This document shows positions 25,375 to 46,778 of a stretch of DNA of 64,000 nt, one piece after another. The notes under the pieces were generated by a model. The model worked only from the letters and a program-made list of their open reading frames with translations, ran no database searches and was not told where the DNA came from. Each line of letters opens with the position of its first letter. Position 1 is the first letter of the stretch. The position numbers and the translations under genes are program-made. This DNA is from an uncultured Bacteroidota bacterium. Its GTDB lineage: Bacteria > Bacteroidota > Bacteroidia > Flavobacteriales > Schleiferiaceae. The stretch is from positions 1 through 64,000 of the forward strand of contig CAJXNI010000005.1 in the NCBI GenBank assembly GCA_913057235.1, read 5' to 3'.

Positions 25375-26659
25375 CTTGTGGACCTTTTTGCAGTTTAAAG
25401 ATGCCACATTGCAGCTGGTAACCGCTGGAACTGTACTCATTGCCATGGGTGCCTCAGTGGTGGGCTGCTTTGCCTTTTTAAGAAAGCGTGCCTTGGTAGG
25501 CGATGCGGTGGCGCATGCCATTCTACCTGGCATTGCCGTTGCCTTTATGCTTACCGCAGCTAAAAATCCGCTTATTCTACTAAGCGGTGCATTAGTGAGT
25601 GGCTGGCTGGCCTTGTACTGCATTGAAATAATTCAAAAAACTTCTAAGCTTAGCGCTGACACGGCCATCGCTGCCGTACTAGGCGTTTTTTTTGGCATTG
25701 GCATTCTTTTACTTACTCATATTCAACATAGTGACTTAGAAAACCAGTCTGGTTTAGACCGATTTCTATTTGGCAGTGCGGCCAGTATGAGCACCGCTGA
25801 TTTACTCACCTACGCGGGAGTAGCCCTCTTTCTGCTTCTAGCCATTGCCGGGCTTTACAAAGAGCTAAAGTTGTTTAGCTTTAACCCTGAGTATGCGCAG
25901 GTACTGGGTTTACCGGTAAAAACCATTAGGCGTCTCATTAATAGCCTTACTGTAATGGCCATAGCCATTGGTATTCAATCAGTTGGTGTAGTTCTTATGG
26001 CCGCTTTACTAATCACACCGGCCGCTGCTGCTCGCGCCTGGACCGATCGGCTTTTGGTGATGATTTTTTTGGCGGCCGGCTTTGCTGCTTTCTCAGCCTT
26101 AGTAGGCTCTTATGTCAGCTTCTCTGCTACCGCTATGCCCACCGGGCCATGGATTGTGATGAGTCTTTCTTTTCTGGCTTTGATTTCATTGTTCATCGCG
26201 CCCCAGCGAGGATTATTAGCGCGTTTGAACCGCCAACGCCTTAACCGCATAAAAATACTAACTGAAAATATGCTGAAGGCGTTCTACAACCTGGGAGAGC
26301 GCGCAGGCACCTATCAAAAGTGGCTTACTGCCGAAGATTTGGCAAGAGTGCGCGATTTCACCCATGCCGAATTGACCCAGGGTTTGAGAATCTTGCGTAA
26401 AAAGCACTTGGTAATTCCAAAACAAAGTGGATACCGGCTCAGCAGGCAAGGGTTAGACGAAGCGCGCAGAGTGGTGCGCTTGCATCGTTTGTGGGAAATG
26501 TACCTGACACAGCGCATGCGCATGAAGTCAGATCACATTCACCCCAACGCAGAAACCATTGAGCACATCATTACCCCTGAAATTGAAGAACAACTTTTAC
26601 GGGAGCTGGACTTTCCCGAAAAAGACCCTCACAGCTCACCTATACCCTACCCCCAATGA
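25367..26659 (+). CDS. Metal ABC permease fused to a DtxR-like module
   Basis: 430 residues. Residues 1 to about 290 are an ABC-3 family permease with about eight membrane helices (GDAVAHAILPGIAVAF, FNPEYAQVLGLPVKTIRRLINSL, LLITPAAAARAWTDRL). From about residue 300 a soluble module follows with the shape of DtxR: a winged helix (AEDLARVRDFTHAELTQGLRILRKKHLV) and a dimerisation/metal domain (VVRLHRLWEMYLTQRM, HIHPNAETIEHII, DFPEKDPHSSPIP). The His and Glu positions resemble those of the free regulator at the operon head. The fusion is continuous in frame with no sign of read-through error; the module could sense cytosolic metal and gate transport. Confidence 0.9.
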   Translation: MDSLWTFLQFKDATLQLVTAGTVLIAMGASVVGCFAFLRKRALVGDAVAHAILPGIAVAFMLTAAKNPLILLSGALVSGWLALYCIEIIQKTSKLSADTAIAAVLGVFFGIGILLLTHIQHSDLENQSGLDRFLFGSAASMSTADLLTYAGVALFLLLAIAGLYKELKLFSFNPEYAQVLGLPVKTIRRLINSLTVMAIAIGIQSVGVVLMAALLITPAAAARAWTDRLLVMIFLAAGFAAFSALVGSYVSFSATAMPTGPWIVMSLSFLALISLFIAPQRGLLARLNRQRLNRIKILTENMLKAFYNLGERAGTYQKWLTAEDLARVRDFTHAELTQGLRILRKKHLVIPKQSGYRLSRQGLDEARRVVRLHRLWEMYLTQRMRMKSDHIHPNAETIEHIITPEIEEQLLRELDFPEKDPHSSPIPYPQ

Positions 26660-27513
26660 GCAGTGCCGGATTTTACATAATGGCTACCGGTGCAGTAATT
26701 GCCGCAGCCTGCGCACTTTTGGGCAGCTTTTTAGTGCTACGCAAAATGGCCATGGTGGGCGATGCCGTTTCACACGCAGTACTACCCGGCATTGTGCTGG
26801 CCTTTCTAATTTCAGGAAGCCGCGGCAATCTCATCATGTTGGTGGGCGCAGCCATCACCGGGGTGCTTACCACTGTGCTTATTGAGCTTTTACACAAAAA
26901 AGCCCGGCTGCAAGAAGATGCTTCCATTGGCATCACCTTTACCTGGCTTTTTGCCATAGGCGTAATCCTCATCAGCAGTTTTACCGGACAAGTAGATTTA
27001 GACCAAGACTGCGTGTTGTATGGCGAGATTGCCTACGTGCCACTTGACCTGCTCTACACCAGCAGTGGCACTGTATTGGGTCCACGCGCTTTGTGGGTGG
27101 GGGGCGGCCTGCTGTTGCTAGTGGTCATCTTCGTTCTGGTAGGCTTTAGAGGCTTGAAAATTTCCACCTTTAATCCGGAGTACGCCAAGGCGCTCGGCAT
27201 TAGCACCGCTTTTTGGCACTTTAGTTTTATGGGCTTGGTATCCCTTACCACTGTAGTTTCTTTTGAGTCGGTTGGCGCTATATTAATTGTGGCTTTGTTG
27301 GTAGTACCAGCCGCCACGGCCTACCTGTTAACCCATCGGCTTAAAGCCATGCTACTACTAGCTGTTCTTTTTGGGGTGTTAGCCTCAGTGGGAGGTTATT
27401 ACCTGGCGGCAGCGCTCAACGGCAGTATTGCGGGAGCCATGGTTACGGTAGCCGGTATTCTTTTTCTTTTGGCCTTTGGCTACAGCCGATGGGAGAATAG
27501 CCGCAAGGCTTAA
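26656..27513 (+). CDS. Metal ABC transporter permease (second)
   Basis: 285 residues, ABC-3 family, eight or nine membrane helices: LRKMAMVGDAVSHAVLPGI, DASIGITFTWLFAIGVILIS, FNPEYAKALGISTAFWHF, ALLVVPAATAYLLTHRL. It forms the channel with the first permease; paired different permeases are known in TroCD- and MntCD-type systems. Unlike its partner it has no C-terminal module. It overlaps the upstream gene by 4 bases and is the last gene of the operon. Confidence 0.93.
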   Translation: MSSAGFYIMATGAVIAAACALLGSFLVLRKMAMVGDAVSHAVLPGIVLAFLISGSRGNLIMLVGAAITGVLTTVLIELLHKKARLQEDASIGITFTWLFAIGVILISSFTGQVDLDQDCVLYGEIAYVPLDLLYTSSGTVLGPRALWVGGGLLLLVVIFVLVGFRGLKISTFNPEYAKALGISTAFWHFSFMGLVSLTTVVSFESVGAILIVALLVVPAATAYLLTHRLKAMLLLAVLFGVLASVGGYYLAAALNGSIAGAMVTVAGILFLLAFGYSRWENSRKA

Positions 27514-30772: not shown

Positions 30773-33700
30773 TTACTTCACCACCCTTTGGGTTTCTCCG
30801 TTCAGGTGAATCAGGTATACGCCTTTTGGCGCTTTGGCCAAGATTTGCACTTCTTGCTGGTTTGTGCTAAAGTGAGCCACTTTCTGCCCATTGAGGCTAT
30901 AGATAGTGACCACATGGTTAGTTTCTACAGCCGGCAGGCGCAAGTAGAGTGCCTCATAATTACGGTAAGCATACCAGGTGCTGGTATTGCGCTCTTCTGC
31001 TGCGCTGGTAGCCACGTTCAAATCACGCTTGGCACTAGTGCCCGGGCAAGTACCCCATACTGGTTTATTAGCATTGGTTAAAGCTGCAGTACCCCCTGCA
31101 AAATTAGTAGGCTCGCTACTGATATTGGTCACACACCAACCGGTTAAATCCTGGTTGAAAGCTGTGGCGTTATTAAACATACCTGTCATGTCTGTCACAC
31201 TCGAAACGTCCCAAGAACCAATGTCTTGGTTGAATGCGCTAGCATCAAAGAACACATACGACATATTTGTCACACTAGACACATCCCAAGAACCAATGTC
31301 TTGATTAAAAGCCGATGCAAAGTCGAATATAGCACTCATGTTTGTCACACTAGACACATCCCAATGGCCAATGTCCTGATTGAAAGCGGATGCCTGGCTG
31401 AACATATAACTCATATTCGTCACACTCGACACGTCCCAGTTGCCAATGTCCTGATTGAAAATGTTTGCATAACTGAACATAAAGCTCATATCCGATACAT
31501 TGGAAACATCCCAGGTACTGATGTCTTGATTAAAGGAGAAAAAATAGAAAAGAAAGCTCATATCAGTTACCTTACTCACACAAACTTTGGTAAAGTCACC
31601 CCCGTTGGTCACCATCGAGTCCAGCATGGCGCGATCTACTACGGTGTACCAGTTATTTCCGCTATCAAGTGAAAAGCTGTCTCTTACCGCATAGGCATCA
31701 CAAACCACGCAACCTAAACCGGGCGCCACCGTATCTGCATAAGCGTTGTTGGGGTTGTAGTTGATGGGGCTTGTACTTGGGCAGGTACCCCATACCGGTT
31801 TGTTGGCATTACTTAAGCCGGAGGTACCACCGGCAAAGTTAGAGGGCTCAGAACCTATATTGGTTACGCACCAACCGGTTAAATCCTGGTTAAAAGCTGT
31901 GGCGTTATTAAACGTACCCGTCATAAACGCTCCCGAAACATCCCAGTTGCCAATGTCTTGGTTGAAAGTGGCAGCGCTATCAAACATAAAAGTAATGCTC
32001 GTGACACCAGACACATCCCAAGAACCAATGTCTTGGTTGAAGGCGGACGCCTCTCGAAACATAGAGAACATGCCCGTGACACCAGACACATCCCAAGAAC
32101 CAATGTCCTGGTTGAAGGCGGATGCCTCTCGGAACATAGACTGCATTTCCGTGACACTCGACACGTCCCAGTTGCCAATGTCTTGGTTGAAGCTAGCTGC
32201 TGCCCGGAACATCTCATACATATTGGTCACACTCGAAACATCCCAAGACCCAATATCCTGATTAAAGCTTACAGCAGCATCGAACATCTCTTGCATAGTG
32301 GTGACACTCGAAACATCCCAAGAACCAATGTCCTGATTGAAAGCGGATGCAGAAAAGAACATTAAGCTCATATCCGTCACACTCGAAACATCCCAAGAAC
32401 CAATGTCTTGATTGAAGGCGGATGCCTTTCGGAACATAGACTGCATTTGCGTGACACTCGACACGTCCCAGTTGCCAATGTCTTGGTTGAAAGAGGATGC
32501 AGAACCGAACATATAGTACATATCCGTCACACTCGAAACATCCCAGCTGCCAATGTCCTGATTGAAGGCGGATGCATCCCTAAATAGGTTAGACATCTTA
32601 ATGACACTCGAAACATCCCAATTACCAATGTCTTGATCAAAAGCACTCGCGTATTCAAACATCCCCTCCATAGTCGTCACACTCGAAACATCCCAAGAAC
32701 CAACGGGCTGGTTGAAGCTAGCTGCTACTGAGAACATAAAATCCATATCGGTCACATTGGAAACATCCCAGGTACTGATGTCCTGATTGAAAGCGGATTG
32801 GTATTGAAAAAGCCTGTTCATATCGGTCACCTTACTCACACACACCCGGGTAAAATCACCTCCGTTGGTTACCATGGAGTCCAGCATGGCGCGGTCTACT
32901 ACGGTGTACCATACATTGTTTAGCTGAAATGAATCGCGCACCGCATAGTTATCACACTCCACACAGCCATTGGCATTTACCAAAGCCCCGTTGGGGTTAG
33001 AGGTAGAGGTGCAAGTGCCCCAACTAGGCTCATTGGCCGAGGTAAGTACGCCCAGGTTACTAAAACCATTGGGGCGGCTGGGTATTAGGCTCACACACCA
33101 ACCGGTAAGATCCTGGTTAAAGGCCGCAGCTCTCTGGAACATGCGGACCATGCGAGTTGCACTGGATACGTCCCAATTACCTATATCCTGGTTAAAAGCG
33201 TTGGCGCCCTGGAACATGCTTTGCATATTAGTGACACTCGATACATCCCAACTGCCAATATCCTGGTTAAAGGCATCGGCTGAATAAAACATGGCCCGTG
33301 CATCGGTAACCTTAGATACATCCCAGTTGCCAATATCCTGATTAAAGGCTGTGGCCTTAAAAAACATGCCGCTCATGGTCGTACCATTAGATACATCCCA
33401 AGTGCTGATATCCTGGTTAAAGCTGCCTTCGTTTCTAAATAAGTTGGAAAAGTCGGTTACATTGGAAACGCACACCTTGGTAAAGTCACCCCCATTGGTC
33501 ACCATAGAATCCAGCATGGCACGATCTACCACCGTGTAGGTGATGCCGTCTAAGGTAAAGGTGCTGCCCACCACGTTATTGGAACACTCTAAACAACCAT
33601 TGCTGTTAAATGCAGCCGCGGCTGCTCCGGGATTAGAACTTGGAGAACAGGAGCCCCAAAGGGGTTCATGACCGGCCGTTAAGCCGCTGCCTACCTTGAA

Positions 33701-36556
33701 GTTTACCGGCTGGGTGGGGATTTGATTTACACACCAACCTGACAGGTCTTGATCAAAGGCTGCCGCTAAACGGAACATCGAGCGCATATTGGTTACACTC
33801 GATACGTCCCAACCACTGATGTCATTGTTAAACTGGCCCGCAAATTTGAACATCCTGCGCATATTGGTCACGCTCGATACGTCCCAGCTGCTGATTGTAT
33901 CATTAAATACCAAGGCATCCTCAAACATACTCTCCATGGTAGTTACCGATGAAACATCCCAACCCGATAAACTCTGATTAAAAGTGGTGGCCCGGTAGAA
34001 CATCCCTTGCATGGTGGTTACAGACGATACATCCCAGCTGCCTATGTCTTGGTTAAAACCTCCCTGATTGGCAAACAGTCCTTGCATATCTGTTACCCCG
34101 GATACACACACCCGGGTGAAGTCTCCTCCGTTACTTACCATAGAATCCAGCATGCTACGGTTTACTTTGGTGTACCAAACTCCGCTTATGCTAAAGCTAT
34201 CACGCACTGCATACGTATCGCATTCTAAACAACCCTCTGTGTTAAAAACCGCACCTAAGGGGTTGCATCCGCCCCAGTCAGGCGCGTTGTCAGCGGTAAG
34301 CGCGCTTTGGCCCGAAAAGAAAGAAGGAGCAGTGGTTATCTGAGGCACACACCAGGTGCTAATATCCTGATTAAAAGCTGTAGCGCCATTAAACATGCGC
34401 TCCATGTCTGTTACAGACGATACATCCCAATTACCCAACGGCTGGTTAAAGGCTGAGGCCCTGAAAAACATCCGCGACATATCTGTTACCGTGGCTACCT
34501 CCCAACTGTTTAAAGGCTGGTCAAATGCACTGGCCAGCTCAAACATTTGCGCCATGGAACTTGCTGAAGAAACATCCCAATCGCTAATATCCTGATTGAA
34601 AGCACTTGCTCCTCTGAACAGGCCCTCCATGTTGGTTACCGCTGCTACGTTCCACTGGTTTAAGGGCTGATTAAATACGGAGGCTCCACTAAAAAGGTTC
34701 CCCATATCGGTGACATTGCTTACATCCCAACTGTTTAGTGCCTGGTTAAAGGCCGATGCGCCAAAAAACAAGGTGCGCATATCGGTTACGCTGGAAACAT
34801 CCCAATTACCTATAGGCTGATCAAAGGCACTGGCACCGAAAAACATACCCCGCATGCTGGTCACATTGGCTACATCCCAACTGCTTATATCCTGATTAAA
34901 GGCAGCAGCCTTTCTAAATAACTGCGCCATATTGGTCACCTTACTTACGCATACGGCTGTGAAATCACCTCCGTTGGTCACCATGGAGTCCAGCATGGCC
35001 CGGTCTACTACCGTGTACCAAACATTATTCAACTGGAACGAATCTCTTACGGCATAATTATCGCATTCCACGCAGCCGTTAGCGTTTACCAATGCTCCGT
35101 TGGGGTTAGTGGGACAAGTACCCCATACCGGCTCATTACTTGCCGTTAAAGCTGAGCCAGCGGAAAAATTTAAAGGTGCTGAGGTAATTTCATTTACGCA
35201 CCAACCTGAGATATCCTGATCAAAAGCCCAGGTTTGAGCTAACATCGCTGACATATCGGTTACATTAGATACATCCCAAGAACCTATATCTTGATTAAAC
35301 GCTCTGGCTTGCGCAAACATCGCTGACATATCGGTTACACTAGATACATCCCAAGAACCAATATTCCGATCAAAGACATTGGCTTGTGCAAACATCCATG
35401 ACATATCGGTTACGCTTGATACATCCCAAGATCCAATGTTTTGATTAAAGGCCATAGCGGCCGAAAACATGCCTCTTGTGCTAATTACATTAGACATGTC
35501 CCAACTACTGATATCTTGATTAAATGTGAATTGTGCAAAAAACAAGGAATCCATAGTATTTACCTTCGAAACACACACCCGGGTAAAATCACCCCCGTTG
35601 GTCACCATGGAGTCCAGCATGGCCCGGTCTACCACCGTGTACGTGTTGCAGTTTAGAGTGAATTGCTCACCTACATTGTAGCCATCGCATTCAATACAAC
35701 CGTTGGCATTTACCAAGGCATTTTTGGGATTAGCGGCAGGGCTATAAGGGAGGTTGCTGGCCACCCAATTCGAAGTATTACCCATTTTTGAGACGCCATC
35801 CAAGGTGGCATCAAGATTATTGCCCGATTGATCCGACACCACCGTAAGGGCCGTGTTGTTGCCGTTTGGGGTTGGCGTTCCACCTTCTTCAAAGTCATAG
35901 AAAATAACCAAATTCGCCTCGTTACCCGAAGGGGAAGCTTGCACCAAATTGCATATTTCCTGTTGCGTAAGCGCTTTATCCCACAGGGTTACATCATCTA
36001 TCTGTCCCTCTAAATCTCCTTTATTCCCGTGCCTGCGGCCCATCATTAACTGAGCACTGGGCCCAAAACTAACGGTGTCTGTATCGGTATAGCTCAAGAT
36101 TTCAACCGCATTGCGGTAAACCTTAAAATTGATGCCTTCTTGTACGGCCGCTATATGCACCCACTCTTCCTGGGTTTCCTTTACGTTGGACCATTGCGCT
36201 GGGGTTCTGGTAAAGTTATCACTTCCCCAACCCCAGCCTTGGTTGGTTTCATTGTAAACGATGGCATCGAAGGTAACGCCATTTGCAGTTTGCAGGGTTA
36301 CCGGCCCCGCAGCACTTTTACCCGATATATTTAGGCTTGATGCCGAAATTTTCACCCAAGCGGCCAAGGTTTTATGGCTGCCAATCGTTCTGCCAATTCC
36401 GGCGCTCACTATTTGCCCATTGTTGTCACGCAGATCCATTACGGTGTTTTGCTGTCCATTTACCGCGAGGCTAAACGCCAAGAGACAACACAGAATTACA
36501 ATTGCCGATGCATTTTTCATTTTTAAAGGCATTTTGGTTGGATGAATTTGTTTCAT
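30773..36556 (-). CDS. Giant BspA/DUF285-repeat surface protein, T9SS cargo
   Basis: 1927 residues. Signal peptide, then a LamG/concanavalin-like domain (residues about 40-270; [35 protein letters not shown]). Six modules follow. Each opens with a header of the type [15 protein letters not shown]...[24 protein letters not shown], continues with 25-residue BspA-type repeats ([18 protein letters not shown]) and closes with a WCV repeat and a W-TC turn. I count 5, 8, 5, 5, 13 and 6 repeats, 42 in all. The end is a T9SS sorting domain ([24 protein letters not shown]). BspA-type repeats often mediate adhesion. The start may instead be one of the Met codons at positions 9 or 13. Confidence 0.9.
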
Positions 36557-36731: not shown

Positions 36732-39200
36732 CTAAATTCGCAGCCCTACCGCTACATAGAAACTGCGCGGATCAGAAGGAGTGATGCCCGGCCCAGGGTA
36801 GCCCGTAGCCCTGCGGGTAAAGTAGCGGGTGTTGGTGAGGTTATTTACCCCGGCTTCAACGGTATAGCGCTGGTAGCGGTAGCTCAGTGAAAAATCTAAA
36901 ATGGCGTAAGCCGGCACGGGACCAATAATTCCCTGACGTAAGTCACCCGCATCGGGTACGGGTGAATTCTCTACATCAGTGAACTGCTCACTCAGGTAGG
37001 TGTATTGCAGGCTAAAGAGCAGGTTCTTATACCCCACATTGATGCCCGTTTTAAGGTTTACCGCTGGAATAAACTCCACCTGATTACCCCTCACGTTGTT
37101 CTCCTCACTGCTTAGGTAAGTGCTCTGGGTAAGCGCCAGATTAAGGAAGTTACTCAATTGAAACTGACGGCTAGCGCTTCCCACTACCTTTAGCCAATTC
37201 ACCTCCGCAAAAGTTTCCAGGCCGTAAATGAGGGCGGTGCCTATATTTTTACGCACCCGCTGCGCGCGATCGTTCAGGATTACACCAATACGGTTGTCGT
37301 AAATGAGGCTGTAAATGCTCACATCATAATTCAGATATTCCTGCCAGTTTCCGCGTAGTCCCGCATCGGCTGTAAAGCCACTTTCATCACTGATATTAGG
37401 ATCAATTTTAAACGTGGGGTTTACCGTGCGGATGTCGCTAAAGGTAACCGAGCGGTAGTTTTGCGAAAAGTTGAAATAGGTTTCCAGAGAGGGGTTGGGT
37501 TTATAGGAAAGCCCCAAACCAGCCAATACAAAAGCCCGCTCCAGCTCACGGTTGTCGCTAAGCGTATCTCTAAAAATGGCATTGCCGGCATTGTCAAAAT
37601 TCACTTGTTGGTACTCCCCTTCACTGGCCGTTTTTAGGTATTCAAAACGCAGACCGGGCGTTATGGAGAGCTTGGAGTTCAGGTACAAAATGTTTTCTGT
37701 AAAAGCGGCCCAGTTGCGGTTGGGAAAAACAAAGGCACTTTGGTTGGCATAATCGGGAAAGCGCTCCGTGGCTAGGCTAAAATCAGGGTCTTGCCCCCGG
37801 CTTCCAGGCCCTTGCACCGCGGTGTTTTGGGCGTGGTAGTACTTGCTCCCCACCAAAAAAACCGCTCTTTTGCCTTTGAGGCGATAGCGGTGCAGCAGGC
37901 GCGCTTCGGCCCCGGCATTGGCAAAGGTGCCTTTGATGACATCCCGCGGGTTCAGGTAGTTGCCCTGAGCATCTTGCTCGTCAATCTCCGTAATGGGGTT
38001 TTGGTTTAAGCTAGAGGGTCTTCCTCTATAGCCTACCGCCTGCCTTTGGGCGTTTAAACCAAAAAGATTGAGACTAAAGTTGGTTTTCTCGCTAAAGAGA
38101 TGCTTAAACTTTAAGGCGTACAACTGCCAGTTTACCTGAAACCAATTGCGATTGCGGTTGCTAAAGTTGGGATTTTGCGCAAACTGGGCATCGGTTAAAC
38201 CGCCCGGTTGCTTAGCCAGGTAATTCAAAAGCGTGTATTCTAAAGCCACCTGGGTTTGCTCTGCAATTTGATAACCCAAATGGCTGTACACATTGCGGGC
38301 ATTGAACTGCGAATTGGGCCGCCAACCATTACCCTGCCGGTAGTTGAAAAAAGTGTAATAGCTGAATTTTCCTGCGGTGCCGCTAAGGCTGGTAAAGTTG
38401 GTATACAAACCATAGCTGCCCAAGGTGTTGCGGTGTACAATTTCCAGGCTGGTATCAGGGGCAGGCTCTTTCATTTTAAAGTTAATGAGGCCGCCAAACT
38501 GGGTACCGTATTGCAGGGAGGCCGCCCCGCGCACCACCTGAATTTCGCGTAAGCCCTCGGCCGTAGGCGTGTAGTAGCTCTCGGGATATCCCAGCACATC
38601 GGCACTAATGTCGTAACCGTTTTGCCGCACATTAAAATTGCTGCTGCGGTTAGGGTCCAGGCCCCGCCCACCAATATTGAGCTGCAGGCCGGCATCATTG
38701 TTCTCGTAAATATTAAGGCCTACAACCTGAGCGTAAATTTGCCTGGCCTGGTTGGCGCCTTGGTTGGCCACCGTGTTGTCCATTAAAACTACCTCGCTCT
38801 TTTTACCGGCATACACGGCCGTGCCTTCTACCTCCTTAAGGCGGTTAAGCCTAAATGTTTTTTCGCGCTCCTGGCGGATGACCACTTCGCTCAGCTCCTG
38901 GCTTAAAGGCTGCATTTGCAGCGTGAGGGAAGTATCGGCCTGCAGGCTGAAATTGAGTTCCTGTGATTGAAACTGATAGCTGAAAAAAATTAATGTTTGG
39001 GGGCCAGCGGGTAGGTTGCTGAAATTGAACTTACCCTGCGCATCGGTTACGACCAGCTTTTCACTGGGCGGGTGAAACACCTCTACACCAGCCAGTGGCT
39101 TTTGAGTACCAGTGGCCACTACCTTCCCCTGCACCTGCAGCTGAGCCATCAGGCAGTGGGTGAATAATCCTAAAATGCTACAAACCGTAAATCGTATCAT
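36732..39200 (-). CDS. TonB-dependent receptor (FecA-like) with CarboxypepD_reg domain
   Basis: 822 residues: signal peptide, a CarboxypepD_reg-like domain (QVQGKVVATGTQKPLAGVEV... to about residue 105), a plug domain (VVLMDNTVANQGANQARQIY, LNIGGRGLDPNRSSNFNVRQ, GLREIQVVRGAASLQYGTQF) and a 22-strand-type barrel ending in aromatic-rich RSFYVAVGLRI. It imports a siderophore or other chelate across the outer membrane using TonB. It is the last gene of the DUF4856-imelysin-HTTM-receptor operon and overlaps the HTTM gene by 23 bases. The iron-chelate call is from neighbours and FecA similarity. Confidence 0.9.
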   Translation of the reverse strand: MIRFTVCSILGLFTHCLMAQLQVQGKVVATGTQKPLAGVEVFHPPSEKLVVTDAQGKFNFSNLPAGPQTLIFFSYQFQSQELNFSLQADTSLTLQMQPLSQELSEVVIRQEREKTFRLNRLKEVEGTAVYAGKKSEVVLMDNTVANQGANQARQIYAQVVGLNIYENNDAGLQLNIGGRGLDPNRSSNFNVRQNGYDISADVLGYPESYYTPTAEGLREIQVVRGAASLQYGTQFGGLINFKMKEPAPDTSLEIVHRNTLGSYGLYTNFTSLSGTAGKFSYYTFFNYRQGNGWRPNSQFNARNVYSHLGYQIAEQTQVALEYTLLNYLAKQPGGLTDAQFAQNPNFSNRNRNWFQVNWQLYALKFKHLFSEKTNFSLNLFGLNAQRQAVGYRGRPSSLNQNPITEIDEQDAQGNYLNPRDVIKGTFANAGAEARLLHRYRLKGKRAVFLVGSKYYHAQNTAVQGPGSRGQDPDFSLATERFPDYANQSAFVFPNRNWAAFTENILYLNSKLSITPGLRFEYLKTASEGEYQQVNFDNAGNAIFRDTLSDNRELERAFVLAGLGLSYKPNPSLETYFNFSQNYRSVTFSDIRTVNPTFKIDPNISDESGFTADAGLRGNWQEYLNYDVSIYSLIYDNRIGVILNDRAQRVRKNIGTALIYGLETFAEVNWLKVVGSASRQFQLSNFLNLALTQSTYLSSEENNVRGNQVEFIPAVNLKTGINVGYKNLLFSLQYTYLSEQFTDVENSPVPDAGDLRQGIIGPVPAYAILDFSLSYRYQRYTVEAGVNNLTNTRYFTRRATGYPGPGITPSDPRSFYVAVGLRI

Positions 39201-40548
39201 TAAAAGGAAGTATCCAGTTTTTGGTGTGCCAGCCTCTACGGTGCTGGGTTAAATCTACACTTGGGTCTATAAAAGGTTGACTGCCACGCCCGTTCAGCGC
39301 CACGTAACTTTGGGCATACACGGCCAGGTCTCCACGCTGCTGGGTTTGTTGGTAGTGTTCTTCTAAAAAGTGGGCAAATTCCAGTATAAAATCGGGCTGA
39401 AAGCTCATCTGCTTTTCTTGAAAGGCGCTTAAAAACGCGCGATTGTCTACCGTAAAGCGTTCGCCCTTTTGAAGATCTACCACGGTAAAGTTTACGTAGC
39501 CCGCTTTCTCCATGAGCATCACCCGCCAGCTGAAGCGAAAACCTTGTTCATGCCAAAAAAGCTCACCGGGATAGCCCAGGTAACGCCAGGGCCAAAGCAG
39601 CTGCAAAGCCAAAACGGCTGCCAGTACGCCAGCGGTCAATCGCTTCCGCGGAAGCGCAGCCCAGGCCAAAACCCGGCCATTGTCAAATACCGCTTTAGGC
39701 AGGTGCAACCAGCCCGCCAAGGCGCTTAAAAGCCGGTGGTGAAAACCGGCACTGAAAAATACCAGGGCACTTACAATCATAATGTAGGGAAACATGCCAA
39801 TGGGAAACAATACGCGGGTAAGCACGTGAAAAATCACCACCAGGGCAAAGGCCCATTTACGGGTAGGCCGGTACAAGAGTAAAAAGGGAATAGCCAGATC
39901 GTAAAGCGCGCCCCCCCAGCTAAAGGCGTAGTGCACCCAGGTTTGCTCCAGCCAGGGGCCTAACAGTGGCAAGTTATAGCGGCCGGGCAGCCAGGTGGCC
40001 AAGGGCTGTGCTTCCAATAGCCAGTCTGAGTTTAACTTGGCCAAACCAGCATAAAAATAAACCAGAGCCAGCAGCAGTTTCAGCACGTCAATACACCAGC
40101 GCGGTATTTTTTGAAAAGCCACTTGGGGTTTACGCCAGGCATCTACTGAAAAGTAGGCCTGAGCCGGTAAAAAGAGCAGCACAAAACTGAGTACCGAAAT
40201 AAAATAGTAGTGATTGAGGTAGGTGGTTTTGTCCATCAACTCAATGTAGGTGAAGCTGAGAAAAAAGAGCAAAATGGCGTAACGGTACCATAGCCCCAGC
40301 GCCACCAGCAAAGCGGCTATCCCGCAAAGGGCAAACAACCCGTAGGTGTAAATACCAAGGGGCTGTACCCATTCAAAGCCGTAATAGCTAAAATGAAAAT
40401 CAGGTTTCAGGTACAATTTTTCAATCCAGCCCATGGCCCAAAAGCGCAGGATGCTCGCAAACATCATCAGGCCAAAAAAAACACGAAAGACCGCCAATGG
40501 GGCGGCCTCTGTGCTTTGGGCTAAGTACTGTTCAAGGGCTTTTTTCAT
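39178..40548 (-). CDS. HTTM-domain (vitamin K-dependent carboxylase-like) membrane protein
   Basis: 456 residues. Several membrane helices in the first about 300 residues and a soluble tail. The motif LMDKTTYLNHYYFI near residue 107 matches the conserved helix of the HTTM/VKGC family; the beginning LAVFRVFFGLMMFASILRFWAMGWI is also typical. In animals the family gamma-carboxylates Glu; bacterial versions are uncharacterised. It lies between the imelysin lipoprotein and the TonB receptor with no or minimal gaps, so a role tied to iron uptake is likely, possibly modifying a partner protein. Confidence 0.85.
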   Translation of the reverse strand: MKKALEQYLAQSTEAAPLAVFRVFFGLMMFASILRFWAMGWIEKLYLKPDFHFSYYGFEWVQPLGIYTYGLFALCGIAALLVALGLWYRYAILLFFLSFTYIELMDKTTYLNHYYFISVLSFVLLFLPAQAYFSVDAWRKPQVAFQKIPRWCIDVLKLLLALVYFYAGLAKLNSDWLLEAQPLATWLPGRYNLPLLGPWLEQTWVHYAFSWGGALYDLAIPFLLLYRPTRKWAFALVVIFHVLTRVLFPIGMFPYIMIVSALVFFSAGFHHRLLSALAGWLHLPKAVFDNGRVLAWAALPRKRLTAGVLAAVLALQLLWPWRYLGYPGELFWHEQGFRFSWRVMLMEKAGYVNFTVVDLQKGERFTVDNRAFLSAFQEKQMSFQPDFILEFAHFLEEHYQQTQQRGDLAVYAQSYVALNGRGSQPFIDPSVDLTQHRRGWHTKNWILPFNDTIYGL

Positions 40549-41670
40549 TTAATCGCCATCGGCATCAATGTAGTCTACGCGCACGTTTAGGGCTTGCAGC
40601 ATGTCTACTTTTAGATACACTACGCCTTGTTGCAAGTCATCGTAAATGGCCAACAAAGCCTGCGGGTTGCTCTCGGCCTCTTGCCTAAAACTACTGGCAA
40701 GGTTTTGGGCACGGCCTTCGGCCAAATCCATTTGCGTAACAATGGCCTCACTCAACAAACCGGCCCCATGTTGGGTACCCAGGTAATCCAGGTAGCTCTG
40801 CAGGCTTTCGCCCGATGCCTGACCGTTGAATCCCATTCCGGTAAAGAAATTACGGTGGGCGGCTAAACTGCGTAAAAAGAGGCTTTGGCTCAAAGTATCG
40901 GTGTACACCGCTTCCACACTTTGCGGTAAGGTGTTTCCTGAAAACACCCCGGCAGGAATGCCCACTTTACCAGCTCGCAATTCCTTCTCAAAATGAAAAA
41001 CATAGTCGTTCACCATTTTATTTACGGAGGCTGCGGCTGAGGAGCCATCGCGGCTCACAAAAGTTTGACGGTAATCGTTTTCCCAGTCGGCCAGGGTGTT
41101 ACCCGCCAATAATTCCAGCCTTTCTGCCAAAGCCTGCAGGTAATCTCCGTAGCGCGGGTCATTACCAAAGCGCGTGTTGGTTTCAGCCAAAGTTCCTAAA
41201 CCGCTAAGCAGGTAATCAATAGCGGGAAAGCCCTGTCGATTAAAAGTGCTGGGCAAGGTTAAGTTGTAGCTGGCCACATTCACAAACTCTAAAATGCCGG
41301 CCGTATCAGTAGGGTACACGTTGGTGAAGTTGCGCAGGCCTTTTTCTTCAGCGGGGCCAATGGCTAGGAAGCTCACCGCCTGCCAGGCGCGGTAGGCTTC
41401 TCTAAAGGCCGCGTGGGTAGCGCTGTGCTGAGCGGCAGTGGGGTTATCCACATAAGTGTTTACAGCCGTAAGTAGGGCCTGGGTACTTTGGTGGTAGTTT
41501 TGATAAGCCGGAATGGCGTAGTCATCGGCCCAATGCACCAGCATGGCACTGCGGTCAAAATTGTCAATTGGCTCATTGGCCTCCCCCTCCTCTTCATTAG
41601 GGGTGCAAGAAAGGGCTGCGCTTAGCAAAAGCGCAAGCCCAATCATCTTACTCAAACTCACCTTTTTCAT
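40549..41670 (-). CDS. Imelysin-family lipoprotein
   Basis: 373 residues with a lipobox (LLLSAALSC, Cys about 22) and a helical imelysin/insulin-cleaving-peptidase-like body. Members are regulated by iron and are proposed to bind iron or heme at the cell surface rather than cleave peptides. The classical GxHxxE motif is here GFPAIDYLL, so the His is Pro and the Glu is Asp, which argues against peptidase activity. The stop is followed directly by the HTTM start, and the DUF4856 gene ends 8 bases upstream; all share one operon. Confidence 0.88.
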   Translation of the reverse strand: MKKVSLSKMIGLALLLSAALSCTPNEEEGEANEPIDNFDRSAMLVHWADDYAIPAYQNYHQSTQALLTAVNTYVDNPTAAQHSATHAAFREAYRAWQAVSFLAIGPAEEKGLRNFTNVYPTDTAGILEFVNVASYNLTLPSTFNRQGFPAIDYLLSGLGTLAETNTRFGNDPRYGDYLQALAERLELLAGNTLADWENDYRQTFVSRDGSSAAASVNKMVNDYVFHFEKELRAGKVGIPAGVFSGNTLPQSVEAVYTDTLSQSLFLRSLAAHRNFFTGMGFNGQASGESLQSYLDYLGTQHGAGLLSEAIVTQMDLAEGRAQNLASSFRQEAESNPQALLAIYDDLQQGVVYLKVDMLQALNVRVDYIDADGD

Positions 41671-41678
41671 AAATGCTA

Positions 41679-42926
41679 TTAATTTAAGTTAGCGGCCTGG
41701 GCCACGGTAAAATTAAAACTTGCGGCAATATCCTGGGCTATGTTTTCCAAGGTACTGGCCTTAATATCCCAAAAGCCATTGGGCCCATCGCCTAAAAGGC
41801 CATTGCTACCTAAAAAGTTTTCTACCTCAGCAGCACTAAAATAAGGCTGATTGGTAGCCGGGTTGTGGGTGAAGCGCAGGCTGTAAATAAAGCCATAAGC
41901 CTCTGAAAGGTCGTGAAAAGCCGTTCCGGTATCGCCTGCCGCCATTACTTGTTTGGCGGTTTCCAGGTAGTACACGGCCCGTATGCCTATAATTTCAGAT
42001 AGCTTTTCGCGGATGATGGCCACCTGCTGATCGCGTACCTCATAGTTGCCTTCAGTAATTGCCGCCCGCCCTAATTTCAATGCGTTGTAGATTTCTACCG
42101 CTATGTTGGCAAAGTCTTCGTCTCCGGCCACACGACCTAAGTATTTGTTTAGAAAATCATCATCACCGCCCAGGTTGGTAAAAGGGTCGGCACCGTTGGC
42201 CGCACCACCAAAAAGATAGCCGTAGGCCTCATCCCACTTGTGCTCCATGGTGGTGTAGGGCTTACCTTCAGCGGTAATACCCTTGCTGTTGTCTTCACGA
42301 TTAGTGCCTGCGTCCAGCACCCCGGCATCCAAGTAGTTGTTAATCATTTGGTCCAGCACCAAGGCGCCAATTAGTCCTTTACCCACGGCCTGGTTGTACT
42401 CTAAACCTTGACCATTTACGAAACGAGCGGAGCTGCCATCGGCAATTTGACCAGCCACCCCTGGTGCCGCGGCTTGATTTTGGTACGGAAAAATTTCCTG
42501 CACCTGCAACCCGATCCAATTTTCAAAATCGGCCTTGATGGCTGCGCTCTCCGTGGCGCTGGTGTTAAAATACGCGTAGGAGGCGGCTGTTTTGGAACGC
42601 AAACTTTTGGTTGAGGCATTTAAGGCGGGGTTCATAAAGGGGTCTACCGGATTGCCATTGGCGTCTTGATTGGCGTACATTTCCAGAAGCTCTTCTTCGG
42701 TTTTGGAGAAATCAAGCAGGGCGGCATTTAGTTCTCCTCCCATGGCCAGGCGGGTAGTTTGTCCCTCATAACTGACCGTGCTTTGGCCGTTCCGTTCAAA
42801 GGTGTAAGTAGCCGGGGCCGTAACACCATTTTCACTAAAGTTGGTGTTGTTGTTTTCTTCTTCGCAGCTGCTTAGAGTAAACAGAGTAGCAGCGCTTAAA
42901 GCTAGGGATAGTGCGGGTTTACGCAT
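41679..42926 (-). CDS. DUF4856 lipoprotein
   Basis: 415 residues. Lipobox LFTLSSC (Cys about 21), then YTFERNGQSTVSYEGQTTRLAMGGEL, the typical start of DUF4856 proteins, and a mostly helical body with repeated dimerisation-like segments (LEYNQAVGKGLIGALVLDQMINNYLDA, WDEAYGYLFGG). The family regularly precedes imelysin genes in Bacteroidota and is thought to be an imelysin relative working on the cell surface in iron uptake. It is the first gene of the operon, with a strong consensus promoter 40 bases upstream. Confidence 0.87.
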   Translation of the reverse strand: MRKPALSLALSAATLFTLSSCEEENNNTNFSENGVTAPATYTFERNGQSTVSYEGQTTRLAMGGELNAALLDFSKTEEELLEMYANQDANGNPVDPFMNPALNASTKSLRSKTAASYAYFNTSATESAAIKADFENWIGLQVQEIFPYQNQAAAPGVAGQIADGSSARFVNGQGLEYNQAVGKGLIGALVLDQMINNYLDAGVLDAGTNREDNSKGITAEGKPYTTMEHKWDEAYGYLFGGAANGADPFTNLGGDDDFLNKYLGRVAGDEDFANIAVEIYNALKLGRAAITEGNYEVRDQQVAIIREKLSEIIGIRAVYYLETAKQVMAAGDTGTAFHDLSEAYGFIYSLRFTHNPATNQPYFSAAEVENFLGSNGLLGDGPNGFWDIKASTLENIAQDIAASFNFTVAQAANLN

Positions 42927-42965: not shown

Positions 42966-42996
42966 CAAAGCTAAAACAGGGAATTCTGATAGCCAA
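42966..42996 (-). promoter_or_regulatory. Promoter of the DUF4856-imelysin operon (TTG-N20-TAGCTTTG)
   Basis: Minus strand TTG (42996-42994), 20 bases, TAGCTTTG (42973-42966): an exact match to the Bacteroidota consensus, about 40 bases before the ATG at 42926. Confidence 0.7.
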
Positions 42997-43059
42997 GCTT
43001 ATTTAGAAAGTTTTTAAATAGGGTGAGTGGTGGGCCAAAAGTTTCCTAGGCCAAAAATC

Positions 43060-43102
43060 AAAAAAGAAGCCGTCTCATAACCCAATGAAACGGCTTTTTT
43101 AT
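43060..43102. terminator. Bidirectional-looking terminator after the Fur-family gene
   Basis: AAGCCGT (43067-43073) and ACGGCTT (43090-43096) form a stem, extended by TCAT/ATGA pairing, flanked by an A run on the left and T run on the right. It would stop the leftward Fur transcript before the DUF4856 operon. Confidence 0.7.
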
Positions 43103-43207: not shown

Positions 43208-43627
43208 CTAAGCTGCGCAATGTCTGCAATAGCCGCGAAGAAGTAATTCGGCCGATTCTACTTTAAGACTATCCGGAGTTTTTACCTTAGGTAGCTTTAC
43301 TTCCGGCAAGCACTGCGTTTCTCCACAATGGTTGCATTTAAAATGAACGTGATTATCATGGTGCTGCTCGCTGCTGCAAGCCCCGCTGCACAGTGCGTAT
43401 TTTACACTTACCTCATCATCGGGTACGCGGTGTACAATGCCGCTTTCTTCAAAGCTTTGCAGCACCCGGTAAAGGCTGGCCCGGTTTAGCTGATCGCCCA
43501 ACAGGGTGTTGAGCTCTCCGTGGCTTAAGGCCCGGGATTGATCTAAAAAAGTAGTTAACACCAACTCACGGCCCAACGTTTTACGCAGGCCGTGGTGGTG
43601 TAAATATTGTGCCGGTGTTTCCGTCAT
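43208..43627 (-). CDS. Fur-family metalloregulator (Zur-like)
   Basis: 139 residues: winged helix (residues 1-75; SHGELNTLLGDQLNRASLYRVLQSFEESGIV) and a metal-sensing domain with C98-NH-C101 and C134-RH-C137, the structural zinc site of Fur/Zur/PerR, plus the His-rich segment EQHHDNHVHF. C80 and C84 are extra cysteines. The ATG shares a base with the stop of the DUF4625 gene (TAATG), so the two are coupled. Short length, the His-rich DUF4625 partner and a TonB receptor next door favour zinc as effector, but Fur or PerR activity cannot be excluded. Confidence 0.88.
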   Translation of the reverse strand: MTETPAQYLHHHGLRKTLGRELVLTTFLDQSRALSHGELNTLLGDQLNRASLYRVLQSFEESGIVHRVPDDEVSVKYALCSGACSSEQHHDNHVHFKCNHCGETQCLPEVKLPKVKTPDSLKVESAELLLRGYCRHCAA

Positions 43628-44409
43628 TAGTCTAAATGCAGTTCGCCTTTTACAATGCCGTAATTGCCATCACTGTCTATGGCTTCAATCTTAATTTCAT
43701 ACTCACCCAATGGTGCGCTGGCTGGCAAAGCAATGGTGAAGTTACTCAAATCAAAAGACGTGTCAGCATTGCCTGTCAATTCAATTTCCTCCTCAAAAAG
43801 TGCGGCTTCTGCTTTTTTGTGATGGTCATGACCTTCGTGCTTTTCTTCAATTTTCACCTTCACTTCCTCTAAATCCTTGTCATCTGTAACGGTTCCCACT
43901 AAAAAAATTGTGTCGCCCGGGGCGTAGTCTAAGTGGTTCGCTAAGTTAGGACTGCTAATATTGAACTGAGGCTCATTGCCATTTACCAAGGTGAAGTTGA
44001 GTTCTACAAAGTCACCCTCATTGCCTTCCGCATCCAATACTCTGAAAACAGCGTGGTAGGCCCCGGCTGTAGCCGATGCGGGTACGTCTACATGCTCGTG
44101 CAAATCCTGGGTTTTTCCGCTTAAGGGAATAACCATTACCTGCTCCCACTCCGCTTTTTTGCCGTGCTCATGGCCGTCAAATACATCGTGAATGTCAATC
44201 TTTAATTCACGCAACTCTTCGTTATCACTTAGTTCCGCATCAATGTGCATTTCAGTGCCAGATGTAACCTGAATGTCGTGATCTTTCTCGTTAATGGTTA
44301 CTTTGTTAATCTGAGGTTTCACGGTATCCTGTACCTCGTCATCCTCATCGGTGCAAGCCACAAAAGCCAAGGCCAAAAGGGGCAATGCCCAGTACTTTTT
44401 CATTTTCAT
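43627..44409 (-). CDS. His-rich DUF4625-type lipoprotein
   Basis: 260 residues. Lipobox LALAFVAC (Cys about 19), then two Ig-like beta domains, each with an inserted metal-binding-looking loop: VFDGHEHGKK near residue 85 and EEKHEGHDHHKK near 195. The style (TVKPQINKVTINEKDH...) is that of DUF4625. The His clusters suggest zinc or copper binding outside the cytoplasm, perhaps handing metal to the TonB receptor encoded upstream. It has its own promoter with an operator-like palindrome and is coupled to the Fur/Zur gene downstream. Confidence 0.82.
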   Translation of the reverse strand: MKMKKYWALPLLALAFVACTDEDDEVQDTVKPQINKVTINEKDHDIQVTSGTEMHIDAELSDNEELRELKIDIHDVFDGHEHGKKAEWEQVMVIPLSGKTQDLHEHVDVPASATAGAYHAVFRVLDAEGNEGDFVELNFTLVNGNEPQFNISSPNLANHLDYAPGDTIFLVGTVTDDKDLEEVKVKIEEKHEGHDHHKKAEAALFEEEIELTGNADTSFDLSNFTIALPASAPLGEYEIKIEAIDSDGNYGIVKGELHLD

Positions 44410-44425
44410 GGTGTTAAATTTTGGG

Positions 44426-44456
44426 CAAAGTTAACCTTTATGCAACAGTGTTGCAA
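44426..44456 (-). promoter_or_regulatory. Promoter of the DUF4625-fur unit (TTG-N20-TAACTTTG)
   Basis: Minus strand TTG (44456-44454), 20 bases, TAACTTTG (44433-44426): exact consensus, 16 bases before the ATG at 44409. Confidence 0.7.
44441..44455. promoter_or_regulatory. Candidate Fur/Zur operator over the -33 box
   Basis: TGCAACAGTGTTGCA is a perfect palindrome (TGCAAC-AGT-GTTGCA) covering two bases of the -33 TTG and most of the spacer. A bound Fur-family dimer would block the promoter of its own gene. Found by eye; only this copy was noticed in the window. Confidence 0.6.
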
Positions 44457-44459
44457 ATA

Positions 44460-46778
44460 TTAAAAAGTTGCCTTTAAGGCGATGTTGAAATTGCGCCCCT
44501 GTTCGGGAAGGTTCAGGATACGGTAACGGGAGAGGTGCTTGAGGTACGCAGTGTTGAAAAGGTTGGTGCAACTGGCCTGGAGCGTAAAAGCTTGCTGGCC
44601 CAATTTAAAATCGTAACCGGCCTTGAGGTGAAACAGGTGGTAAGCGGGGGTGGCGTCTTCATTACGGTCGGTACGGTTTTGCGCAGCGGTAAAGCGCCAA
44701 CTGGCCCCCAGGCGCCAGTGTTCTTCCTCCCAGTTGAGCTGCATAAGGTTGGAGAAAGGCGGGGTGAAAGGTAGCGGTAGGTTGGTCTCTACGTTGTGGT
44801 TAAAAAGGTATTCTACCCCGTTGCTCCAGTGCAGCTTGCGCCAAAAATGCCAGTCCAGGTACAATTCAGCCCCCGTTTGAAAAACCGCACTTTCATCGTA
44901 GCGATACAGCTGGCCGGCATCAGGCAGGTTGCTAAAACGGCCGCTGGGCCTTAAAAAAATGTAGTTGAAAAAGTAATTAGCAAAAGGCGTAAACGTTGCC
45001 AAAAAGCGCGGCTGCTGAAAAGTGGCAGCCAGGTCCAGCTGCAGACCTTCTTCGGCCTTAAGCCCCGCCTGACCCTGCTCATGCCTGAAGGTGCCGTGGT
45101 GCACCCCATTGGAAGCGAGCTCTGCCACCACGGGCAAACGGAAGCTTTTGGCCAAATTGGCTTTGAAGTTCCATCGCTCAGCAGGCACAAACGAAATTCC
45201 GGCTGCAGCCGAGTAATTGAAGAACTGGCGGTTTAAGGCGGGCGAACGCAAGACCAAGCTGTCGATATCATTCCACCAGCGGGTAAAGCTGGCCGCGCTG
45301 TTAATGCTGCCGTAGTCTAGCCGCAGGCCGGCATTCCAGTTCCATTTTTGGGCTTTTACGTTTTCAGCTAGTAAAAACACGCCCCCATTGTAGGTGGCAA
45401 AAGAGGGAATCAGGTATTCAAAACCATCCCGGTTGTTGCGCTTGTATTGCTGGTTCAGCCCGGTGGTAAACTCCACCTGGCCCTGGTGCCAGCTGTAATC
45501 GGCATTAAGGGTAAGGGTGTGCAGTTGCAGACCCAAGGCCAGGGTTTGCGAAGAGTCCAGCTCTTCAAAACCGTGGTTATGGGGTAAGGAGTTTTCAGCG
45601 CGGTTGTTAAACTGATAGCCGGCATTTATTTGCAGCCAGTGGCCTCCTAAGCGAAAGTTTTGCCGAGTATACAACTTGGTGTGGTTAACCGCTTGATTGG
45701 GCAAGGCCAAATTGCTGGTGCTGCCAATGGTGCCTACATCAAAGGCACGGGGTATGCCGGTAGCGCCCGGGTACAGCCCCAACTGCTGGCGGTACTGCGA
45801 AAAAAGGTAGCGCGAGGAATAGCCTTCTTTTTGCTGCCCCACTTCAAACCGGTAACTGAGCAACTGTCCAGCCGTATTTTTTAGGGTATTATTGGTAATG
45901 GGCAATACAAAACCATTGTAGGTAAACTCTTCGGCCGGCACTCTAAAATCGCGGTAACGCTGAGCGCTAAGGCGCGCCCGTACAAACCAATCCTGCTTGC
46001 GGTACTGCAGCTGACCCGAGCCACCCAGGGTGGTATTATTGCTGCGGTACAAAGTAGTAAGCTCCCCGCTGAGCCCTGGTTTGGGTAGTTTGTTGGGCAA
46101 AATATTGAGAACGCCTCCGGTGGCATCTGAACCGTACTGCAAAGACTGTGGACCTTTTACCAGCTCCATGCGCTGGGCCTGAAAGGGGTCTATTTCCAAA
46201 CCATGGTCTTGCCCCCACTGCTGGCCTTCTTGTTTAATGCCCTGGTCTAGCACGCTTACGCGATTGCCCATAAATCCGCGGATCACCGGCTTGGCCACCC
46301 CTACGCCCGTGTTTAAGGCACTCACGCCTGGTAAATCTTCCAGGCTTTCGCCCAGACTGTTGGCACTAATTTGGTCTTGTAAAGAGGCGCTGCGGTTTTG
46401 CACGGTAAGGCTACTCTTTTGCTGGCTCCTGCGGGAGAAGCTTTCTTCCACCACCACTTCACTCAACTCAATAAAAGAAGGTAAAAGGGTAAGGGTTAAC
46501 TGATTTTCTTCAGGAAAGAGGAGATCAAAATCACGGGCTTTAAAGCCTTCCTTTTCTACGTGCAAGTGGTAGTGCCCCGGTGCCAGGTTGGCAAAAGCTA
46601 CCTTGCCACTGGCCGAAGTGGTGTCCAGCAGTCCTTCGCGCGGCAGCGATACCAGCACACCCTGCAGAGGCGCCTGACTTTGCCCGCTAAAAACCTGTAT
46701 AGAAAGTTGCGTTTGGGCAAAGAGGCCGGTATTGCCTAAAATTAGTACTAGGAGCCAGGCTTTAAGCCGATGCTGCAT
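44460..46778 (-). CDS. TonB-dependent receptor (probable zinc/chelate importer)
   Basis: 772 residues: signal peptide (LLVLILGNTGLFAQ), CarboxypepD_reg-like domain (LSIQVFSGQSQAPLQGVLV..., to about residue 95), plug (SLGESLEDLPGVSALNTGVG, VIRGFMGNRVSVLDQGIKQ, MELVKGPQSLQYGSDATGGV) and a barrel ending FNIALKATF. The plug has His and Gln-rich loops (QQWGQDHGLEID), as in zinc/copper-related receptors such as ZnuD, but this is weak. It starts 2 bases after the rseP stop, so it is probably cotranscribed with it, and is followed by the DUF4625-fur unit. Confidence 0.88.
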   Translation of the reverse strand: MQHRLKAWLLVLILGNTGLFAQTQLSIQVFSGQSQAPLQGVLVSLPREGLLDTTSASGKVAFANLAPGHYHLHVEKEGFKARDFDLLFPEENQLTLTLLPSFIELSEVVVEESFSRRSQQKSSLTVQNRSASLQDQISANSLGESLEDLPGVSALNTGVGVAKPVIRGFMGNRVSVLDQGIKQEGQQWGQDHGLEIDPFQAQRMELVKGPQSLQYGSDATGGVLNILPNKLPKPGLSGELTTLYRSNNTTLGGSGQLQYRKQDWFVRARLSAQRYRDFRVPAEEFTYNGFVLPITNNTLKNTAGQLLSYRFEVGQQKEGYSSRYLFSQYRQQLGLYPGATGIPRAFDVGTIGSTSNLALPNQAVNHTKLYTRQNFRLGGHWLQINAGYQFNNRAENSLPHNHGFEELDSSQTLALGLQLHTLTLNADYSWHQGQVEFTTGLNQQYKRNNRDGFEYLIPSFATYNGGVFLLAENVKAQKWNWNAGLRLDYGSINSAASFTRWWNDIDSLVLRSPALNRQFFNYSAAAGISFVPAERWNFKANLAKSFRLPVVAELASNGVHHGTFRHEQGQAGLKAEEGLQLDLAATFQQPRFLATFTPFANYFFNYIFLRPSGRFSNLPDAGQLYRYDESAVFQTGAELYLDWHFWRKLHWSNGVEYLFNHNVETNLPLPFTPPFSNLMQLNWEEEHWRLGASWRFTAAQNRTDRNEDATPAYHLFHLKAGYDFKLGQQAFTLQASCTNLFNTAYLKHLSRYRILNLPEQGRNFNIALKATF

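Follow-up and report, generated by a model that had tools for sequence, protein, structure and literature searches.

A 64,000-nucleotide stretch of an uncultured Schleiferiaceae bacterium (Bacteroidota; assembly GCA_913057235.1, contig CAJXNI010000005.1, positions 1 to 64,000; hereafter the window) belongs to contig 5 of a 99.97% complete, 2.83 Mb genome and carries four minus-strand open reading frames (ORFs) forming one tight operon for a DUF4856 lipoprotein, an imelysin lipoprotein, an HTTM-containing homologue of vitamin K-dependent gamma-carboxylase (VKGC) and a TonB-dependent receptor. Along the operon the genes are separated by 8 nt, then by 0 nt, and finally overlap by 23 nt, in agreement with the four tightly packed genes that a first-pass annotation of the sequence had delimited. 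In operon order, they are:

41679..42926, minus strand: DUF4856 lipoprotein, 415 aa, lipid-bearing Cys21 (Pfam DUF4856, 4e-132)
40549..41670, minus strand: imelysin lipoprotein of the IPPA type, 373 aa, lipid-bearing Cys22 (Peptidase_M75, 3e-28), with a GxPxxD variant of GxHxxE and a C-terminal DxDGD
39178..40548, minus strand: VKGC homologue, 456 aa, HTTM membrane domain plus VKGC luminal domain (HTTM, 6e-81; VKGC_lumenal_dom, 3e-53), in which K171, H113 and N112 are equivalent to K218, H160 and N159 of human GGCX
36732..39200, minus strand: TonB-dependent outer-membrane receptor, 822 aa (Pfam TonB barrel, 1e-27)

This arrangement is widely conserved. Among 80 loci from named genomes, the best 80 of at least 593 relatives, 74 had all four genes in the same order and on the same strand, with a largest internal gap of 284 nt. 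Two of the six exceptions reach a contig end (L069 and L074), two have an imelysin in the opposite direction where DUF4856 would be expected (L078, confirmed by Pfam, and L080), and two hold DUF4856 and VKGC only (L012 and L020). Across 247 sampled genomes of the phylum, VKGC gave 64 matches in 56 genomes and DUF4856 gave 39 matches in 38; VKGC was present in 35 of the 38 DUF4856 genomes versus 21 of the 209 others (Fisher p 2e-24). Nearly all DUF4856 matches (36/39) were followed, 1.9-3.8 kb downstream on the same strand, by a match to the VKGC luminal domain, 48 of the 64 VKGC genes were placed within 2.5 kb after an IPPA-type imelysin, and 48 of the 52 imelysin matches scoring at least 110 bits (15 weaker rows excluded) precede VKGC. 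Retention of the HTTM gene in the operons of relatives, on which the first-pass annotation had made its reading depend, is thus the common condition. The first gene encodes a distant DUF4856 relative in 12 VKGC loci of greater divergence; together with one DUF4856 protein from a genome lacking a VKGC match (L159), these 12 relatives matched the DUF4856 family with an hhalign probability of 99.9 at 18% identity over 324 columns.

Three elements lie upstream of the DUF4856 gene:

42966..42996, minus strand: Bacteroidota-type promoter TTG-N20-TAGCTTTG, its -7 element 27 nt after the operator's 19-mer
43000..43020, minus strand: Fur-type operator, a 21-bp near-palindrome, TATTTAAAAACTTTCTAAATA, whose inner 19-mer agrees with the Riemerella Fur-box consensus at 15/19
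43067..43096, minus strand: terminator-like hairpin of 12 pairs and a T run, between the operon and the upstream genes for a Fur-like protein, DUF4625 and a TonB-dependent receptor

The operator's inner 19-mer starts 93 nt before the DUF4856 ATG, and the near-palindrome abuts the promoter. The promoter was named by comparison with the Bacteroidota consensus; the pattern TTG-N19-21-TANNTTTG occurs five times over both strands of the window. A sigma-70 scan gave nothing at the operon start and a promoter of that kind was rejected there, so that the single consensus promoter of the first-pass annotation stands as a promoter, of Bacteroidota type. The hairpin is weak evidence when taken alone, with 16 terminator-like sites in the region versus 11.9 expected in shuffles. 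Allowing up to three mismatches, the near-palindrome pattern occurs at only three sites in the genome, and the reversed control pattern at one. When Fur boxes were scored with the Riemerella consensus (PMC5609570), matches of at least 15/19 were found in 67 of 76 DUF4856 upstream sequences versus 18 of 333 control upstream sequences from the same loci. In 55 of 75 sequences, that of the window included, the TANNTTTG element begins 26-29 nt after the operator (5.7% of shuffled 78-nt stretches contain this element), and the constancy of the spacing argues that the operator has a fixed place on a Bacteroidota promoter; -7/-33 promoter elements are mentioned for this group (PMC5609570). Elsewhere in the genome, only one further operator copy, the second-best, has no more than one mismatch (G000:C7:100583-100603, which is L084 1501-1521); it starts 98 nt before nqrA, and from this copy the sodium-pumping NADH:quinone reductase may be iron-controlled here.

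Evidence that the operon responds to iron comes from Riemerella anatipestifer, in which Table 4 of PMC5609570 lists RAYM_09779-09794 as putatively Fur-regulated. These genes have the same order by annotation, and were matched to ours on names and order. Iron limitation of the wild type induced the TonB-dependent receptor RAYM_09779 (2.11), the vitamin K-dependent gamma-carboxylase RAYM_09784 (2.64), the imelysin lipoprotein RAYM_09789 (3.07) and the hypothetical protein RAYM_09794 (2.41; all in the table's units), and in a fur mutant with iron the four were up 1.36-1.93 relative to the wild type with iron (PMC5609570). In the available passages of that paper they are missing from the Fur-box table, their promoter is not among the four tested for binding, and the carboxylase is not discussed. 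The marine strain Bizionia argentinensis JUB59 also contributes an operon to our locus set (L076), and the most reduced genes of a regulator mutant of this strain include an imelysin-like gene and a siderophore receptor (PMC9478572), which may or may not be those of L076. Taken together, the evidence strongly supports an iron-acquisition operon, as the first-pass annotation had supposed in describing iron uptake with a carboxylase-like membrane enzyme, and the dependence on iron that it had anticipated is seen in these name- and order-matched genes.

We next consider the enzyme. The VKGC homologue aligned with human GGCX, the carboxylase of blood clotting, over query residues 8-448 (441 residues; E 4.4e-35 to 1.3e-34), and both VKGC-family Pfam domains scored above their cut-offs of 27.7 bits each (HTTM, 272 bits; VKGC_lumenal_dom, 180 bits). 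GGCX residues described in PMC12589487 were mapped onto an alignment of 81 relatives, the window's protein included, of which the other 80 are fairly close (57-67% identity to the query); a wider check covered 36 VKGC proteins from three genomic contexts, some of them much more distant (one, from L156, is split into two ORFs; L161 and L162 were excluded). In GGCX, K218 is the base that deprotonates vitamin K hydroquinone, and H160 and N159 hold the Glu side chain (PMC12589487). The equivalents of all three are identical in 81/81 close relatives, as are those of V210, A214, W223, G259, F286, F294, F299, D222, S398, M402, D442 and R476; the Y395 position is Tyr in 54 and Phe in 27, the window's protein among the latter. 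K218, H160, N159, W223, G259, F286 and F299 are also retained in 36/36 of the wider set, and F294 in 35/36. Of the six quinone-pocket residues (F286, F294, F299, W223, V210 and M401), five are kept in 81/81, and M401 is replaced by Val in 81/81. The sequence thus strongly indicates that the homologue keeps an intact catalytic core. The relationship of the HTTM protein to vitamin K-dependent carboxylase was correctly recognized at the outset, although the protein proved to carry the VKGC luminal domain in addition to HTTM; because most active-site residues match GGCX, the enzyme is more than carboxylase-like. A MenD match in this genome (374 bits against a cut-off of 244; the family matches all 14 control genomes, above the cut-off in 7) indicates that menaquinone is probably made.

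Sixteen of the 64 VKGC genes in the sampled genomes lie away from IPPA-type imelysins, nine of them after ribF (9/9 confirmed by Pfam) and seven elsewhere. The ribF-linked kind (L126-L134), of about 440 aa, retains the main catalytic residues and is nearer to GGCX at N158 and M401. ribF encodes riboflavin kinase/FAD synthetase, and in 7/9 of these loci the next gene downstream on the same strand is serS-like (two confirmed by Pfam, the others by eye). The VKGC relatives of L155 and L156 adjoin what is possibly another lipoprotein partner, about 240 aa long and matching DUF4382 weakly, below the cut-off.

We propose that this is an iron-regulated, Fur-type operon in which the receptor and the two lipoproteins would acquire iron and VKGC would modify those lipoproteins, an account whose chances we regard as roughly even. 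Three considerations point to the lipoproteins as substrates: operon logic, a split locus in Roseivirga and the known action of GGCX, by analogy with which gamma-carboxylation would be the default chemistry here. When iron is short, the repressor would leave the operator and the four genes would be made. While the lipoproteins are still at the inner membrane, on its periplasmic side, VKGC would carboxylate at least one of their glutamates at the expense of menaquinol, O2 and CO2; this would probably be gamma-carboxylation, chiefly of DUF4856, and would make an iron site. Once at the outer membrane, the finished lipoproteins would use the modified site to bind Fe(III) and would pass it to the receptor. 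DUF4856 is the favoured partner because in the Roseivirga assembly containing L012 VKGC is missing from the contig that carries DUF4856, imelysin and receptor, and has stayed with a second DUF4856 on another contig. An operon-encoded redox enzyme that modifies a partner metal-binding protein, making its metal site, is found in the MbnH/MbnP copper system, which we offer as an analogy only: there the enzyme is a di-haem protein, the product kynurenine and the metal copper, where here they would be VKGC, possibly gamma-carboxyglutamate (Gla), and iron. On the Roseivirga contig that lacks VKGC, a 732-aa PepSY_TM-flavodoxin-NAD-binding protein (L205 4940-7138), possibly an inner-membrane iron reductase, precedes the DUF4856-imelysin-receptor genes.

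The DUF4856 lipoprotein was modelled with high confidence (pLDDT 93.8, pTM 0.90; alignment of 52 sequences, including 46 of 76 close loci). It has no sequence match in the PDB and no good fold match (Foldseek best E 1.2; VIA best Z 7.5); the top VIA hit, to a catenin M domain (4.4 Å over 175 residues), is at a level common for helical proteins, and we claim no new fold. The first-pass annotation had described two lipoproteins of imelysin type. One of them is an imelysin by Peptidase_M75 match and by fold; DUF4856 was not supported as an imelysin by these tests, having no Peptidase_M75 match, no PDB sequence match and no close fold match, and several helical chains unrelated to imelysins scored above imelysin 3n8u (Z 4.7 over 140 residues, rmsd 4.3) in comparisons with its model. 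A crude lipobox pattern was found in 72 of 77 DUF4856 proteins and 51 of 78 imelysins, with the Cys aligned in all. The N-terminal acidic tails were rejected as Gla clusters, as they are mainly Asp-rich, of CSSDDD type (25 DUF4856 and 25 imelysin tails); we take such tails to be surface-export signals.

C21, K183, Y262, Y320, E342 and G345 are invariant in 62 VKGC-linked DUF4856 members, with H338 in 60/62 and E176 in 57/62. Helix geometry in the model would place Y320 opposite E342 in the hairpin that helices 295-329 and 333-352 form. The iron ligands of transferrins are likewise a pair of Tyr, a His, a carboxylate and a basic residue. DUF4856 could conceivably be a transferrin-like ferric-binding lipoprotein with Y262, Y320, H338, E342 and K183 as its site, completed by a VKGC-made Gla whose second carboxylate would replace the free carbonate of transferrins; we think this rather unlikely. 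Among three DUF4856 proteins from genomes without a VKGC match, L157 has lost K183, Y262, Y320, H338 and E342, L159 has lost H338, and L158 has kept all five, a pattern that is no more than suggestive of a link between the candidate site and VKGC. The FEA1-related lipoprotein model NF038033 gave weak matches (E 0.01 or better) in 29 of the 52 members, the best at 1e-9, and none in ten further DUF4856 scans, nine of them of relatives outside the 52; the score of 27.9 bits lies far below the curated cut-off of 250. Kin of the algal FEA1 proteins include phytotransferrin; Ot-Fea1 binds iron, and ferric binding by phytotransferrin is carbonate-dependent (PMC7676907).

The imelysin scored 99.8 bits for Peptidase_M75 (cut-off 23.5), and its model (pLDDT 92.7) matched ICMP 7xrx (Z 33.1, 2.5 Å over 318 residues) and IPPA 3pf0 (Z 32.0, 2.6 Å over 300), so that it belongs to the imelysin superfamily by sequence and by its two-bundle fold. 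Gx[P/G/A/S]xxD is present in 78/78 close operon imelysins, and the GxHxxE of the ICMP and IrpA kinds is absent; by motif and C-terminal end, the window's imelysin goes with the IPPA kind. The replacement of GxHxxE by GFPAID was correctly noted in the first-pass annotation. Its reading as a pointer to binding rather than proteolysis was not upheld, since variants of this kind are known: in the IPPA imelysin that His is already replaced by Pro, and imelysins in general have been argued not to be peptidases (PMC3143127).

Comparison of 48 operon imelysins (37 of 77 close ones, 10 distant ones and the window's) with three IPPA-type imelysins outside VKGC operons (L197, L198 and L199, from genomes G108, G187 and G182, which hold VKGC elsewhere) revealed Asp at position 152 in 43/48 of the former versus Glu in 3/3 of the latter; Q97, A107, G237 and a few weaker positions are also operon-specific. 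Because D152 represents the loss of a Glu, it would not itself be a carboxylation site. A first contrast of the 48 with seven others had suggested E228 and the C-terminal DGD as the VKGC target. This candidate was rejected: the DGD end is found in 3/3 IPPA-type imelysins outside VKGC operons and in PDB 3pf0, and Glu is at 228 in 2/3 of them and, as aligned, in 3pf0.

The same three imelysins adjoin a di-haem oxidoreductase (DHOR) and an ICMP-type imelysin (3/3 loci), suggesting that VKGC takes the slot of another redox enzyme. The ICMP-DHOR-IPPA operons of the Pseudomonas PA4370-4372 type are likewise iron-regulated, with imelysin-superfamily lipoproteins and an enzyme between them, and their IPPA member also has Pro in place of His (PMC3143127) and ends in DGD; here, DUF4856 stands in place of ICMP, VKGC in place of the di-haem enzyme, and GxPxxD in place of GxPxxE.

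Several observations weigh against a carboxylase that modifies these lipoproteins. The VKGC homologue, at 456 aa versus 758 for GGCX, shares the HTTM and luminal domains and stops at the equivalent of about GGCX residue 504, so that the remaining luminal part is absent, including I532 of the propeptide site. Also not retained are C99 and C450 (the disulfide pair), K217, N158, R436, M401 and N290; C99 is replaced by Phe in 81/81 relatives, C450 by Tyr, Phe or His, and K217 by Ala in 80/81. No VKOR (PF07884) was found in this genome, so an epoxide product would need another fate; across the 247 genomes VKOR and VKGC are not associated (11/56 versus 47/191, p 0.48), and a vitamin K cycle with a VKOR partner was rejected on that ground. 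On the substrate side, one DUF4856 protein from a genome without a VKGC match (L158) keeps the whole candidate site, and E228 and DxDGD are not confined to VKGC operons. Two genomes (G079 and G237) have imelysin, VKGC and receptor, in which a search for a DUF4856 relative found none, and a third (G108) has a lone VKGC of the operon kind with no DUF4856 found. The Roseivirga locus comes from a metagenome assembly (listed at 8.2 Mb) in which organisms may be mixed. Finally, loss of fur in Riemerella does not abolish the response of the four genes to iron (2.70, 2.77, 2.92 and 3.07; PMC5609570), indicating that Fur is not the whole of iron control there.

Some of these points would be accommodated if VKGC were a menaquinol-dependent oxygenase or epoxidase that does not carboxylate protein and instead, in DHOR's slot, serves the release or handling of iron by a redox or base step. 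Most quinone-pocket residues and K218 are retained, the Glu-backbone contacts N158 and R436 are lost together with everything past about residue 504, and the occupation of this slot by a di-haem enzyme in sister operons keeps such a role alive. The Leptospira VKGC homologue, moreover, reportedly epoxidises vitamin K without detectable carboxylation. However, the two residues that in GGCX hold the Glu side chain, H160 and N159 (PMC12589487), are conserved in 81/81 and 36/36 proteins, and a pure quinol oxidase would have no obvious need of them; we regard this alternative as possible, and as distinctly less probable than lipoprotein carboxylation. It is improbable that VKGC modifies a small molecule imported by the receptor, such as a citrate-like or peptide chelator. 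The receptor's top NCBIfam resemblances are to siderophore and FecA receptors (every one under its cut-off) and a common chelator would need no biosynthetic gene; however, internal gaps of at most 284 nt leave no room for an extra gene in the 74 complete loci, GGCX itself modifies proteins, and the Roseivirga VKGC lies apart from the receptor, beside DUF4856. Handling of another metal or metal complex with indirect iron control, which a possible zinc system next door (43208-46778) and the iron response of the Riemerella fur mutant might favour, is very unlikely given the Fur-box footprint, the induction by iron limitation and the ties of imelysin families to iron (PMC3143127).

Metal-related genes are also found around the operon. 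That neighbouring unit (43208-46778, minus strand) comprises a Fur-like regulator, a His/Glu-rich DUF4625 lipoprotein and a ZnuD/haem-receptor-like TonB receptor. Because the genome has a stronger Fur-family gene in another place (C2:15138-15494), the Fur-like neighbour may be Zur, not the operon's regulator. Farther off, 23630-27513 (plus strand) encodes ZnuA, an ABC ATPase, an ABC-3 permease fusion and a second ABC-3 permease; the fusion (25367-26659), of an ABC-3 permease to an iron-dependent repressor C-terminal (DtxR-type) domain, looks unusual. Directly downstream of the operon (30773-36556, minus strand) is a gene for a 1927-aa protein that combines a Laminin_G_3 domain with 16 DUF285 stretches.

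The open-access literature searched yielded no account of this operon as a system, none of a part for VKGC in iron uptake, and no paper on DUF4856, on imelysin together with HTTM, or on the HTTM domain and iron. The parts are known and their combination is undescribed; the iron response was found in one table of one paper, in its available passages (PMC5609570). What emerges is a VKGC with the main catalytic residues that, across much of the phylum, shares a Fur-type operator with two lipoproteins and a receptor, an association that names candidate VKGC substrates and a growth condition. If DUF4856 were transferrin-like, vitamin K-dependent modification would serve iron uptake and bacterial VKGC homologues would gain a function. 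Should the lipoproteins lack Gla, the operon would still point to the purpose of VKGC; should they carry it, bacteria would be putting vitamin K-dependent carboxylation to use in capturing metal.

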